Shown here piece by piece: positions 6,895 to 11,197 of a stretch of DNA of 64,000 nt; the stretch's first letter is position 1, and each line of letters opens with the position of its first letter. The notes below the pieces were generated by a model that saw nothing but the letters and a program-made list of their open reading frames with translations, was not told the origin of the DNA and did no database searches. A program made the translations under genes and the position numbers. Origin of the DNA: Gemmatimonadota bacterium (lineage in GTDB: Bacteria > Gemmatimonadota > Gemmatimonadetes > Longimicrobiales > Gaopeijiaceae); NCBI GenBank assembly GCA_022825135.1, contig JAJDYN010000029.1, forward strand, positions 124,001-188,000, written 5' to 3'.

Positions 6895-6925
6895 GGGGCC
6901 GCCGGCTGCTGGGACTACCGGCCCC
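6895..6925. terminator. Possible bidirectional terminator hairpin
   Basis: A GGGGCCG arm at 6895-6901 pairs with CGGCCCC at 6919-6925 around a 17-base loop. It lies in the 31-base gap between two convergent stop codons and the last codons of the minus-strand gene. No T-run follows on either strand, so this is a structural suggestion only. Confidence 0.3.
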
Positions 6926-8183
6926 GGTCGAGCGGCCAGAACTGGACGCGTTCCACGTCGAACTCGTCCATCACCCTCCCGAGGACGTAGTCTTCGCCGA
7001 TCTCGAAGACATCCAGACCGGGCGGTGTTTCGACAAATCCCTGAACGCGGCCGTCCGCGTCGAAGACCGTCCAGACGTTCCGATCCTGGCCCGGGTACCG
7101 GTATTCCTGGACCCAGAGATGCCCCAGCGGATCGGAGTGCAGGGCCTCGAACGCGGGGAAGTACTCGACGAGGGGCATAGTCTCGGTCGGGGCAGCGAGG
7201 CGCACCCGGAGTTCTTCCGGAAGACCGGCGAAGCTCTCGGCAAGCACGCGGTCCAGTTCGGCCTGCGTAGGACTGCGGAGCTCGTGGTCGCGGCGGATGA
7301 TCCTCAGCAATGCGCCGTCGCTCCCGTAGGCACGCAGTTCGTACCGGTCGGTGGGAGCCAGGACGACGAGGCCGCCCCAGATCGTCGCACCGGTGGACCG
7401 GCCGAAGGGATGGGCCCCCGTAGCCGGAGGGGTGGTCGAGACATACCACTCCTGCCCGGGATGAAGACCCAGCGATACCCGAAGCTCTCCGCCGGGGTCA
7501 AGAAGGCCGAAGTCCTCGTCGCGCCGGACAAGCGGCTCCCCGGAGTCGAACAAGCCACCAGCGAGGACCGGGCTCGGCTTCACCAGCATCGCCCCGTCGG
7601 GCAGCACCCCCAGAAACGAGTGGTAGCCATCGGCGAGGGTCACGGTGCGGCCGTGACCGCCGCGCGAATCGAAGATCTCCAGCCGTCTCCGGAACATGTT
7701 GTCGGCGGCAACCGAGTCACCGCGCCATCGGCTCACCGCTTCCGGCGTGTACCTGCTGAATTCTCCCGGGCCCTCGCCTCGTCCTCCCCATGTCTCCAGG
7801 TATGCACCATCGGCCGCGAAGACCCGCAAATCGGAGGTGCCGGCGTTGGCCACGACGATCCGGCCATCGGCGAGCCTGGTGGCGTCCCGAACGCCGAAGA
7901 GCATCTCGCCCGGGTCACCCTCTTCCGTCCCGATGGAAGCCGCAGGGGTCTCCCCGATTTGCCAGGCGAGACGCGAGCCCAGGGTTGGGCGCGCGTTTTC
8001 GACAATCGTCACGCCGGCGCTGTCGCGAACCTCGGAGCGAAGGGGCTGCGCGGCGTCGCGCTCGGAGTCACAGGCCGCCGCCACACCGAGGATGATCACC
8101 GGGAAGACTGCCAGGCCGTTCGGGCGTGCCCTGGAAAGCGGCCGCATTCGCGCCAGACGCCGGCATGCGGTTCCAGAGTACAT
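6915..8183 (-). CDS. 6-bladed beta-propeller lipoprotein
   Basis: This secreted protein of 422 residues has an N-terminal hydrophobic stretch ending in GVAAACDS, a lipobox. It then shows repeating propeller blades of the NHL/6-bladed class: RLADGRIVVANAGTSDLRVFAADG, WGGRGEGPGEFSR and a late EYRYPGQDRNVWTVFDADGRVQGFV. The GxGxGPGEF element is the usual signature of this class. I chose the ATG at 8183 because GGGGAG lies five bases before it; an ATG at 8147 is the alternative, and longer upstream frames have no such site. Function is unknown. Such proteins are thought to mediate ligand or protein binding outside the cell. Confidence 0.82.
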   Translation of the reverse strand: MYSGTACRRLARMRPLSRARPNGLAVFPVIILGVAAACDSERDAAQPLRSEVRDSAGVTIVENARPTLGSRLAWQIGETPAASIGTEEGDPGEMLFGVRDATRLADGRIVVANAGTSDLRVFAADGAYLETWGGRGEGPGEFSRYTPEAVSRWRGDSVAADNMFRRRLEIFDSRGGHGRTVTLADGYHSFLGVLPDGAMLVKPSPVLAGGLFDSGEPLVRRDEDFGLLDPGGELRVSLGLHPGQEWYVSTTPPATGAHPFGRSTGATIWGGLVVLAPTDRYELRAYGSDGALLRIIRRDHELRSPTQAELDRVLAESFAGLPEELRVRLAAPTETMPLVEYFPAFEALHSDPLGHLWVQEYRYPGQDRNVWTVFDADGRVQGFVETPPGLDVFEIGEDYVLGRVMDEFDVERVQFWPLDRGR

Positions 8184-8316
8184 TGCTCCCCTCAGCCAGT
8201 GGGCGACAAGCCGGGTGACCTGGACCGGAGGCCGGTAACCTCGTGGACCCTGCTGTTGAGACGCGCGAATGTCGTCTGCCTGTTGCCAGCCCAGGCTGCG
8301 ATTCCGCCGAAGCCGG

Positions 8317-8577
8317 TCATCGCCGGCTCCGGGGGTCGAGACCGGCGAGAGGATCGGGTTCGTCAGGCGAACCGGCCAACACCTTCCAGTAGCCACCCTT
8401 GTCGGGACCGACCCGCTCGATCTTCCCGGACGCGCGCAACTTGTCCAGCCGGTATCGGACGATGGATCTGGTGGTGCGCAGCGTGGCGGCGAGCTCGCGA
8501 CGGCTGGCGGACGGGTTCTGGTTGAGAAGGGCCAGGATGCGGTCCGAGAGGGCCGGCGGTCCCGGCGACCGAGGGTT
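8317..8577 (-). other. Second winged-helix domain, intact but out of frame with the upstream gene
   Basis: Read in the frame ending at 8317, this segment encodes LSDRILALLNQNPSASRREL, then a stretch ending VRYRLDKLRASGKIERVG and GGYWKVL. It is a clear paralogue of the in-frame winged helix of the DUF4062 protein (DGILAFLRKNPSASRRDI, then VRYQLDKL, GG and W). It has no plausible start of its own; the frame opens inside the neighbouring gene. One extra 11-bp unit in the adjacent array (8578-8610), or loss of one base, would join it in frame to the DUF4062 protein. The alternatives are a recent frameshift or an assembly error in the repeat. Confidence 0.7.
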
Positions 8578-10216
8578 CTTTCTGGTGGTTTTCTGGTGGT
8601 TTTCTGGTGGTCTCCTGACTGATAACGGACTGCGCCCCCCCTGCGTGCCGGCGGTCCCCAGCAGAGGCACCGGTCTCCTCTCCGGCCCTCGCGTCGAGAT
8701 CGTCAACAACCAGCCAGCGACCTCCCCTGGCCGGCCCGATACGACGTAAATTACCCAACTTCTTGAGTTTGTCTAACTGATACCGGACGCTTCCCTCGGT
8801 GGCCCCGTGAATGGTTTCGACGATGTCGCGACGGCTGGCCGAGGGGTTCTTCCGCAAGAAGGCGAGGATCCCGTCGCCCAATTTCTGGCTGGCGCCTTCC
8901 TTTTCTGGCGGTTTTCTGGCGGTTTTCTGGCGACGTTCTGGTTGTCCTTCGTCGCTTCCGGTCGCTTCCTGGGTGGTGTCGCGATAGGCTTGGGTAGTCT
9001 CATGGTCGCCGGATCGCCAAATCCTGATCAGGAATCCCGCGCCGACCTCGAACTCCGGCTCCGGCAGGCCCGCCTCGGCGCAGCGCCGGATCATATCCAC
9101 GGTTCCGGTGCCCATCCTCTCGATGTACTGCAGCAGGTACATCGACTCCGCAAGCAACGGATTGCCCGGTAGCGACTGGTGCGGCATGCGCAGCTTGTCC
9201 ACGGTCAGGGGCGGCGGCAACCGGCCCGAGTTCAGGACTTCCAAACGGTCCGCGAACAGCATCACCTGCACGCTGCTATTGTCCGTATAGTCCCGGTGGG
9301 CGACCGCGTTCACGATTGCTTCGGTCACCACCTCCTTCGGGATCTCGTACTTGACGGGCGCCTGCACGCTTTCCGCTCTGGTTCCCACCGACAGCGCGAC
9401 CTTGCTCATGACGAAGTCCACCGCCTGGTCCACGAGCGCGAAGACCGTGCCCTTGTAGACCTGGTAGGAGGGAATCGGCTTGGCCACCTCCGTCCCGTGG
9501 AAGTGCGCGCACTTGATCTCGGAGGAGATCAGGAAGCGTTGCGGGGCCTGTCCGAAGAGCAGCATTGCGGCGTTGGTCAACCGCCCCCTGTTCAACAGGT
9601 TCAGATGCCTGAGCAGATCCGGCGGCGGTGTCTCCGCCGGCAAGGGGAACTGCCGCGCCCTGCGCGCGATGCGGATGAAGCGGTACATGTCCTCAGTGTC
9701 CAGATCGTCGAGCGTGGCTCCCGAGCACGGCGTGGCGTCGAAAGGCCCGAAACGCAAGAGTTCCCTGGCTTCGAGGTATTGCACGAGCGAGGCGTAGAGC
9801 CCGGCAATGAGCTCCGCCGTTGTGGCGAACCGCCTTCGCACCAGACCGGCTTGCGCCCTGGCGATGAGCGCACGCATCCGCGGGTGTCGGTCGCCTTCTT
9901 CCGCCCCCTTCACGAAGATGAGCCGATGCTTCTCCAGCTCGGTGGCGCGGTTGAACTCGCGCTCGGTGGGCGACACTCCCTCGGCGTCCTCGCTCCCGTA
10001 GTCTCGTCCGAACAGGCCCACGTAGATGTCGCAACGGCCGACCTCATCGAGGTACACCCGGTCGGGACGCCGGTCCGAAGCCGGCACGTCCTCGAACAGG
10101 AAGACATCGAAGAACCGCCGCATCAGCGGGTCGCCGCGCAGGTAGTCGCGCAGCTGTTCTCTCTCTCTCGCGAACTCTCCTTGCACGCTGCTGATGAAGA
10201 TGCGGATCGGGATCAT
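8363..10216 (-). CDS. DUF4062 / COG2865-type ATPase / winged-helix protein
   Basis: The 617-residue product has three parts. Residues 1-100 match DUF4062, a domain often placed near TIR-like folds (RIFISSVQGEFAREREQLRDY and CDIYVGLFGRDYG). Residues 170-410 match the COG2865 predicted regulators with a HATPase-like fold (LLRHLNLLNRGRLTNAAMLLFG, AIVNAVAHRDYTDNSSVQVM, YIERMGTGTVDMIRRC). Residues 445-500 form a winged helix (NPSASRRDIVETIHGATEG). The AlbA/Schlafen nuclease-like domain usual at the N-terminus of COG2865 proteins is replaced by DUF4062. After residue 546 the frame leaves a second winged-helix coding segment and runs through basic low-complexity sequence, which suggests the true C-terminus is different. 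Role unknown; regulation or defence is plausible. Confidence 0.8.
   Translation of the reverse strand: MIPIRIFISSVQGEFAREREQLRDYLRGDPLMRRFFDVFLFEDVPASDRRPDRVYLDEVGRCDIYVGLFGRDYGSEDAEGVSPTEREFNRATELEKHRLIFVKGAEEGDRHPRMRALIARAQAGLVRRRFATTAELIAGLYASLVQYLEARELLRFGPFDATPCSGATLDDLDTEDMYRFIRIARRARQFPLPAETPPPDLLRHLNLLNRGRLTNAAMLLFGQAPQRFLISSEIKCAHFHGTEVAKPIPSYQVYKGTVFALVDQAVDFVMSKVALSVGTRAESVQAPVKYEIPKEVVTEAIVNAVAHRDYTDNSSVQVMLFADRLEVLNSGRLPPPLTVDKLRMPHQSLPGNPLLAESMYLLQYIERMGTGTVDMIRRCAEAGLPEPEFEVGAGFLIRIWRSGDHETTQAYRDTTQEATGSDEGQPERRQKTARKPPEKEGASQKLGDGILAFLRKNPSASRRDIVETIHGATEGSVRYQLDKLKKLGNLRRIGPARGGRWLVVDDLDARAGEETGASAGDRRHAGGAQSVISQETTRKPPENHQKEPSVAGTAGPLGPHPGPSQPEPVRQPSRARRHAAHHQIHRPIPAGQVARVREDRAGRSRQGWLLEGVGRFA
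8578..8610 (-). repeat. 11-bp tandem array 2 (three units, second linker)
   Basis: Three adjacent copies of TTTTCTGGTGG (first copy with one mismatch) lie inside the DUF4062 gene, just before the second winged-helix segment. Eleven is not a multiple of three, so each gain or loss of a unit changes the reading frame downstream. Because 11 and 3 share no factor, the array encodes the same cyclic peptide (TTRKPPENHQK) in whichever frame is used. Adding one unit would bring the second winged helix in frame. Confidence 0.85.
8901..8933 (-). repeat. 11-bp tandem array 1 (three units, first linker)
   Basis: Three adjacent copies of TTTTCTGGCGG (last copy with one mismatch) encode the linker RQKTARKPPEK that precedes the in-frame winged helix. 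The unit differs from that of array 2 by one base, so the linker-plus-winged-helix module looks like an old tandem duplication. Confidence 0.85.
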
Positions 10217-10266: not shown

Positions 10267-10761
10267 TCACGGATTCAGGACCCGATCCGGGTTGGCCTCG
10301 GCTTCCCACTCCACGTCGATGGGCGCGATGATGTCCCCCCGGATGCCGGGGGACAGGAGAGGAATCGGCTGCCTTCGCTTCCTGCGGTAGATCGCGAAGC
10401 CGCGGTCCAGGGTGAGGACCGGGCTGTCCCGATGCAGTTCGGACATCTGGACCAGACACGCATCCGCGAGGGACATCGGGACGTCACGGTACTTGCTCAT
10501 GAGGCGAAGGACCGCTTCAGCGTGATCGACCAGCCGAAACGACGGCTCGATGACGCCTCGGCGGATCAATGAGACCACTCCCTCCTCGCCTCCGCGGCCG
10601 AGACGACGGGCCAGAAAGCAGGCCTCGACGACCACGGCCTCGCAGGTAAGCAACGGGGATTCGATCCGGTCCCACTGCTCGCGCGCCCAGCGATGATCAC
10701 GGTCGCGATCATTCATGAACGCGACGAGAGGTCCCGCGTCAAGAATGACATCCCGGATCAC
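10267..10761 (-). CDS. vapC: PIN-domain toxin (VapC-like)
   Basis: This 164-residue PIN-domain protein is probably the ribonuclease toxin of a type II pair. The acidic active-site residues are visible in order: LDAGPLVAF (first Asp), CEAVVVEACF (Glu), MSLADACLVQ and LTLDRGFAIYRRK. Its start overlaps the stop of the antitoxin gene by four bases, the usual coupling for these modules. The tail after the last motif is somewhat longer than in small VapC proteins. The RNA target cannot be inferred. Confidence 0.87.
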   Translation of the reverse strand: MIRDVILDAGPLVAFMNDRDRDHRWAREQWDRIESPLLTCEAVVVEACFLARRLGRGGEEGVVSLIRRGVIEPSFRLVDHAEAVLRLMSKYRDVPMSLADACLVQMSELHRDSPVLTLDRGFAIYRRKRRQPIPLLSPGIRGDIIAPIDVEWEAEANPDRVLNP

Positions 10762-10997
10762 TCTCCGAACCCTTCCATGTATTTCGGGTTCGTCGCAAGG
10801 TCCTCGGGTCCCTCGAAGGCACCCGCCAGATCGCGCGCGAGGTCCAGCGCCGACTTGGGCCGACCTGCCTCCTCCGCGCTCAGGAGCGTGCGGACGGCCT
10901 GACGGATCAGCGCAGACTTGCTCACGCCCCTGCGGTGGGCGGCGGCGGCGACCTCGGCGGCCAGCGGCTCCGGCATCTTCAGCGAGACGGTTACCAT
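10758..10997 (-). CDS. vapB: Ribbon-helix-helix antitoxin (VapB-like)
   Basis: This 79-residue protein begins MVTVSLKMPEPLAAEVAAAAHRR, a ribbon-helix-helix (CopG/Arc) N-terminus, followed by GVSKSALIRQAVRTLL and a C-terminal region suited to binding the toxin. I placed the start at the ATG at 10997, which is preceded by GGGGGA; a longer frame upstream has no matching ribosome site. It would repress its own promoter and neutralise the PIN protein encoded next. Confidence 0.85.
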   Translation of the reverse strand: MVTVSLKMPEPLAAEVAAAAHRRGVSKSALIRQAVRTLLSAEEAGRPKSALDLARDLAGAFEGPEDLATNPKYMEGFGE

Positions 10998-11010
10998 CAA
11001 TCCCCCGTCG

Positions 11011-11050
11011 TGACGAAGTATTATCTCATACGAGAACGGAGTATTACCAT
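11011..11050 (-). promoter_or_regulatory. AT-rich upstream element of the vapBC pair
   Basis: A 40-base AT-rich island in otherwise GC-rich DNA lies 14-53 bases before the antitoxin start. It contains GATAAT on the minus strand and an imperfect inverted arrangement of GTATTA-like ends. It is a plausible promoter and autoregulatory site, on position and composition only. Confidence 0.4.
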
Positions 11051-11197
11051 GGAGGTGTACCGTCGTCAAGCGTTCGTTCAGGATGTGTCCCCTGGGGGAC
11101 AGACGGTCTGGCGCAGGAACCCGTTTCGGAGCCTGCCCGGCGGGCATATGCTGTTTCTATCCGCTCCCGATCCCTTCACGGCCCGGGGTACCCCCCC

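Follow-up and report, generated by a model that had tools for sequence, protein, structure and literature searches.

An 11-bp repeat before each winged helix of a Gemmatimonadota DUF4062 gene: a probable DNA recognition element and a possible frame switch

In the antiphage system Swarozyc, DUF4062 is described as a TIR-like NADase, the catalytic glutamate of KpSwz being E97, and a C-terminal winged-type domain binds the phage portal protein, NAD+ cleavage being triggered by the portal (main text of PMC13174449, bioRxiv May 2026). The DUF4062 gene analyzed here appears to resemble the system in that text by joining DUF4062 to C-terminal winged-type domains and by having relatives in defence-gene neighbourhoods. 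It differs by an HATPase_c_4 ATP-binding body placed in between, by tandem winged helices and by repeat linkers; the terms “ATP-binding”, “tandem repeat” and “phase vari” do not occur in the main text of PMC13174449, and no paper on these repeat linkers appeared among the search results. A second group of similar proteins, the HATPase_c_4 “ATP-binding / RNA-binding domain-containing” proteins of type I restriction loci, lies between hsd genes (G020 and G001) or beside hsdR (an Arcobacter plasmid). An HATPase-type body and a C-terminal winged helix (wHTH) are common to these proteins and to ours, which has an N-terminal DUF4062 and a second wHTH in addition. With phase-variable SSR contingency genes, the gene shares a non-triplet repeat inside the ORF and a downstream frame that moves with a one-unit change. 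Here, however, the unit is 11 bp long, is stop-free in all frames and looks like a binding site, and with the change a foreign tail takes the place of a C-terminal domain, without truncation. The Bacilli-type genomes discussed below resemble autoregulated winged-helix regulators with tandem operator repeats in that direct repeats of about one helical turn lie upstream of a gene with a winged-helix product, whereas our lineage carries the repeats inside the coding sequence.

In the window, by which we mean the whole 64-kb stretch of DNA analyzed, the assembled ORF (8363..10216, 617 aa; minus strand, as are all parts of the gene given below) runs through DUF4062, the ATP-binding body, array 1, a first winged helix (wHTH1), array 2 and an out-of-frame tail. 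DUF4062 covers residues 5-91 (9944..10204; Pfam PF13271, E 2.3e-20) and carries the motif S82-P-T-E85-x-E87-F88, invariant across six aligned proteins; E85 and E87 are thereby two invariant candidates for the equivalent of KpSwz E97. An NADase activity is predicted for the window protein. The HATPase_c_4 domain follows at residues 314-392 (9041..9277; Pfam, E 6.1e-18). It is shared with the COG2865-like regulators that pair it with AlbA_2, whereas AlbA_2 gave no Pfam match in the window protein at E up to 1.

Array 1 (8901..8932) consists of 2.9 perfect 11-bp units of CCGCCAGAAAA, and array 2 (8579..8611) of 3.0 perfect units of CCACCAGAAAA, one fewer than in the G010 relative. The earlier note, made from the letters alone, had described three units per linker, which is exact for array 2 and slightly generous for array 1; the latter carries substitutions in the congener G007. 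A chance origin was rejected, the two arrays being the only perfect runs of at least 2.85 copies with a period of 7-40 in the window, while windows simulated with a third-order Markov model (n = 60) contained 0.017 of them on average. Much else in that description held: each array precedes a winged-helix segment, wHTH1 (8705..8875) is in frame, and ORF and Pfam evidence place an intact wHTH2 (8377..8544) in a frame different from the rest. The unit encodes the same cyclic peptide, PPENHQKTTRK, in all frames with no stop in any, and one more unit would restore the frame, as the needed shift is 2 mod 3. The assembled ORF is not truncated at this point, as a foreign tail of 71 codons and a stop (8363..8578) is read across wHTH2. 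The third frame after array 2 (8578-6915) meets no stop for 553 codons and reaches into the beta-propeller ORF that lies downstream (6915-8396); this opening is probably due to chance, because in G007 that frame stops after about 125 aa.

Pfam searches with the assembled 617-aa protein gave weak winged-helix signals (best E 0.25), and the ORF of wHTH2 itself a stronger match (HTH_24, E 7.2e-7). The two winged helices, of which about half the residues had been said to match, are 47% identical, and wHTH2 has all 20 columns that are identical across 13 aligned winged helices. An AlphaFold2 model of wHTH2 adopts a winged-helix fold, with block means of 91-94 over model residues 11-50; the full-length model was poor (pLDDT 41) and was left out of the fold search. 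A DNA-binding function of the wHTH is plausible. A Z-alpha identity of wHTH2 was considered and not adopted: the tie is one of fold only, Foldseek returned nothing at E 0.001 or better, and the residues regarded as key in Z-alpha domains are not conserved.

How the frame was lost could be followed in the family of the host, from which 15 genes with two winged helices were fetched. In 12 of them the two domains share a frame; the other three are those of the window genome (G000) and of its congener G007 and a damaged gene, L039 (G031), whose domains lie in different frames with a partial wHTH1 on a contig with N runs; it is counted as out of frame among the 15 and was left out of all Fisher counts given below. 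L086 and L107, which came from other searches and likewise have two wHTH that share a frame, were included in neither tally of wHTH1-to-wHTH2 linkers. From wHTH1 to wHTH2 the spacing measures 331 bp in both G000 and G007. It measures 342 bp, exactly 11 bp more, in the four in-frame genes of G010, G018, G020 and G025, among them the closest in-frame homologue. Alignment with G010, whose body is 90% identical to the window protein over residues 2-403, places four units there against three in the window, with flanks of equal length. In G007, a separate assembly from another species, the identical 33-bp array 2 and the same frame are found at a locus whose synteny marks it as orthologous (88.9% over a 5.4-kb block that contains the gene, with more blocks on both sides). 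W1 and W2 domains form two separate clades in the tree, and the window W2 groups with that of G010. The spacing, the G010 alignment and the two clades together indicate that the in-frame arrangement is probably ancestral and that one unit was lost. The comparison of relatives which had been proposed for array length and wHTH2 frame thus returned a one-unit difference and domains that mostly share a frame, with unit numbers compared in one genome per species. With up to one mismatch, the 11-bp pattern occurs in 9 of 117 genomes of the window's family (control 0); the strict pattern was found only in the window's genome among 395 genomes of the phylum, a sample that does not include G007.

Between G000 and G007, wHTH2 in its own frame differs by 7 synonymous and 2 non-synonymous substitutions (dN/dS 0.12, P 0.005 in a neutral simulation), a test resting on 9 substitutions. 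When the stretch is extended to run from array 2 as far as the wHTH2 stop, 16 substitutions are available (10 synonymous, 6 non-synonymous; dN/dS 0.26, P 0.008). Read in the assembled frame, the wHTH2 stretch gives a ratio of 3.7, and the tail at 8363..8578 shows no sign of purifying selection in that frame between the same two genomes. Elsewhere in the gene, dN/dS is 0.24 for the body, 0.37 for wHTH1 and 1.28 for the linker before array 2. With G010 as outgroup, and over a region that extends slightly beyond the domain, G000 has acquired 2 synonymous and 1 non-synonymous changes and G007 5 and 1, one of each kind being left unpolarised. Neither species has a stop or an indel in wHTH2. Purifying selection in its own frame suggests that wHTH2 has probably been translated for most of the time since the divergence of the two species, whether through switching or in some other way. 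The earlier argument that an intact out-of-frame domain speaks against simple decay is strengthened by the own-frame ratio, which makes an old decay unlikely.

Coding arrays of this type are not confined to the host's family. A scan for three units, with one genome per species, returned 43 loci in several phyla, many of which are genes of the same plan with an ATP-binding domain, an array and a winged helix. An 11-bp run of at least 30 bp is present in 17 of 60 non-redundant ATPase-to-wHTH linkers, and two of these 17 are out of frame with an intact wHTH, namely Prevotellaceae L112 and Endomicrobium L127. These array genes (L092/L112, on a contig that begins inside the gene, and L076/L127) come from two unrelated records. 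After 14 wHTH1-to-wHTH2 linkers were added (3 with an array, 11 without), clean out-of-frame cases numbered 4/20 with an array versus 1/51 without (p 0.02). The contrast depends on the counting rule: it becomes 3/19 versus 1/51 (p 0.06) if the two congeners are counted once, 4/20 versus 4/54 (p 0.20) if otherwise broken genes are kept, and 2/17 versus 4/43 (p 1.0) for HATPase-to-wHTH linkers alone. Since the sample was partly picked by the pattern itself and the “otherwise broken” class was sorted after the cases had been seen, the out-of-frame enrichment among array genes is suggestive only.

Several loci bear on how these counts were made. The sole clean case without an array is L011, whose linker measures 155 bp against 156 bp in relatives. 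L013 (G021), L116 and L118 are out of frame and have other lesions; they were excluded from the clean count and kept in the full one, while L072 and L077 were dropped, their ATP-binding part being a remnant or absent by eye. Two pairs of neighbouring hits were discarded, L038 (370 bp) and L045 (139 bp), because the second hit is part of the next gene or is itself a fragment. The last arrays of L092 and L094 differ by one unit, but the two are not counted as a clean pair because the linker upstream of that array differs too. By eye, the arrays of G015 (L136, L145) sit in stretches without the domains. A pattern scan of Elusimicrobiota matched 3 of 294 genomes, all at loci already in the set, and tblastn confirmed no viral relatives; one viral contig (L053) has the array, with no wHTH found. 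Three-unit 11-bp arrays were also seen at L056, L061 and L096, which are Roseibium, Thermoguttaceae and Vasconcelosia loci, where no adjoining family gene was found.

What the earlier note overlooked is that the 11-bp repeat also lies upstream of family genes in Bacilli-type genomes. In 13 of the 43 loci (Bacilli, Bacillales, Mollicutes, Clostridia, one Onthovivens and two others) the array is outside the linker. In nine Bacilli/Clostridia-type loci with HATPase/wHTH genes (L055, L064, L069, L075, L081, L083, L084, L088 and L091), three TTTTCTGGTTG units stand in front of the family gene, with 39-43 bp between their end and its first start codon. These promoter arrays lie on the TTTTCTGG strand, in the orientation opposite to the coding arrays, and a TATAAT-like box and a ribosome site can be recognized by eye between array and start. 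In L057 and L070 the gene behind the array looks cut or gone, and L067 and L068 contain no complete ORF. Upstream DNA was testable for 54 of 60 family genes; all nine promoter-array genes matched at 24/24 positions, at -66 to -70, and the next-best matches were L035 (21/24), L009 (18/24) and L062 (17/24). Those of L035 and L009 lie about 240 bp upstream, within the wHTH1-wHTH2 linker of the preceding gene. The window gene has no promoter array, its best upstream match of 12/24 being no better than shuffles. A promoter array is absent from all 14 coding-array genes for which upstream DNA was available (with some doubt about the true start of L062, L071, L086 and L104), and none of the nine promoter-array genes has a coding run of at least 30 bp. 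With up to 2 mismatches allowed, the array occupies a single place in 6 of 7 promoter-type genomes (reversed control pattern, 0), and in the bacterial family of one of these genomes it occurs in 8 of 224 genomes (control 0).

The winged helices themselves also differ with the presence of an array. A recognition-helix motif is found in 23/28 array genes versus 4/22 without array, and a wing motif in 27/28 versus 8/22, an array gene being one with a coding run of at least 28 bp or a promoter array; ten partial-array genes were set aside (recognition-helix motif 6/10, wing motif 9/10). As the motifs were chosen post hoc in a set of related genes, the p-values overstate these contrasts, and neither the array nor the motif counts are phylogenetically independent. 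For one repeat at two places of one gene family, the simplest common cause would be recognition by the family's own winged helix, and the nine upstream arrays suggest that the unit is probably a binding site for it, one helical turn long. If so, it was probably DNA recognition, rather than selection for frameshifting, that fixed the 11-bp period, and the shift of frame would be a by-product, possibly exploited. Promoter arrays would thus tie the repeat to DNA recognition, beyond a curiosity of linkers.

We therefore put forward the following explanation, tentatively and at somewhat short of an even chance. The gene would encode a DUF4062 protein of the TIR-like NADase type, with an ATP-binding part and winged helices, most likely for antiphage defence. 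The repeat would be an element in DNA that the winged helix of the family itself recognizes, arranged as direct repeats one helical turn apart, placed before the gene in Bacilli-type genomes and inside it, as a linker preceding a wHTH, in Gemmatimonadota, Bacteroidota and Elusimicrobiota. Since the unit is free of stops and its 11 bp are not divisible by 3, gain or loss of a unit would also shift the reading frame of the next domain. The window and G007 would represent a state in which wHTH2 is disconnected, the array having one unit fewer than in the in-frame relatives. We consider it likely that unit number changes back and forth, giving proteins with one or two winged helices; against this, three units are short for rapid slippage. 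The arrays, the frame, the one-unit difference, own-frame selection on wHTH2 and the promoter arrays are observations; array binding by the wHTH, reversible switching, NADase activity and a defence function are inferences. The history of the frame supports a one-unit change with wHTH2 apparently still in use. The phase-variable protein proposed in the earlier note is in part borne out, by an out-of-frame state one unit shorter than in in-frame relatives, by own-frame selection on wHTH2 and by two unrelated records with an intact out-of-frame wHTH; speaking against it, the out-of-frame excess is weak and both species with this gene state have three units. A bolder version is unlikely in our estimate: a self-addressed phase-variable immune protein, at which the in-gene repeat number sets both the binding sites and the wHTH count, the element having moved between promoter and coding linker across phyla.

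That both species share the same three units and the same frame is what would be expected if the unit had been lost for good, recently in the ancestor of G000 and G007 or separately in each, with wHTH2 heading to decay and the repeats acting as binding sites or spacer without any switching. The window wHTH2 even carries one unusual change, R where 11 other wHTH2 rows have G, D or A. We nevertheless regard such a fixed loss as rather unlikely: the selection on wHTH2 since the split, its freedom from stops and indels in both species, and the two other lineages with intact out-of-frame domains behind arrays all argue against it.

The same selection, in the face of an array fixed in both species, could be explained if wHTH2 were constantly expressed by another route, either through +1 ribosomal frameshifting near the array end or as a small protein from the internal start GTG 8670. 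CCC-T directly follows array 2, and sites of this type can shift ribosomes. The wHTH2 frame is open from 8772 to 8317 and offers three start codons: TTG 8709, from which a 130-aa ORF (8317..8709) runs, TTG 8706, and GTG 8670, which is ATG in G007 with GGAGAGGAG upstream. Against an internal start, the stretch from wHTH1 to array 2 that holds it is unconstrained in that frame (0 synonymous and 4 non-synonymous codons), an argument weakened by the little constraint on such linkers in any frame, and by eye the internal frame is closed by a TAG in G010. We hold expression by another route to be improbable.

Still less probable is that the array is only a flexible protein linker grown by slippage, with 11 bp as an accident and 12-bp repeats elsewhere. 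Frame-keeping repeats of 12 bp do fill the same linker position in other members (L111, L117, L121, L159 and L160), yet a peptide cannot explain the 11-bp unit in non-coding DNA upstream of Bacilli-type family genes, in opposite orientation. Finally, an assembly or base-calling artefact that hides an in-frame sequence, which had been named as a way for the reading to fail and which the draft state of the genomes might favour, is nearly excluded by the identical 33-bp array and frame in the separate assembly of G007; an array this short fits within a single read.

Under the reversible unit change that we prefer, one short DNA unit would serve as operator, protein linker and frame switch together, and a DUF4062 defence protein could alter its sensor or DNA-binding module in a manner that is inherited. 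The TTTTCTGGTTG repeats are a concrete candidate DNA target for a winged-helix family present in several phyla, and the promoter-array and coding-array lineages offer a test bed for why non-triplet repeats persist inside genes.

Defence would be the likeliest role of the DUF4062 gene. Four neighbourhoods of relatives were looked at, and type I restriction genes are present in two. The single-wHTH relative of G020 (74% identical) is flanked by hsdS and hsdR and overlaps each of them by 4 bp. The relative of G001 (75% identical) has the same two neighbours and overlaps hsdR by 4 bp; hsdM is shortened at this locus. At the G010 locus no restriction genes were found among the genes tested; two or three genes from the G010 copy, an AAA/STAND-like ATPase with weak winged-helix matches is encoded (L129:4756-6522). 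G007 has a second DUF4062 gene next door, on the upstream side (L128:8305-9528). In the window, PIN-domain and ribbon-helix-helix genes, a VapBC-like pair, lie directly upstream of the DUF4062 gene (10267-11147, minus strand). L159, from a Legionella anisa plasmid, encodes a DUF4062/ATP-binding relative that is 64% identical over 410 aa and has a different C-terminal part; its gene adjoins plasmid partition genes.
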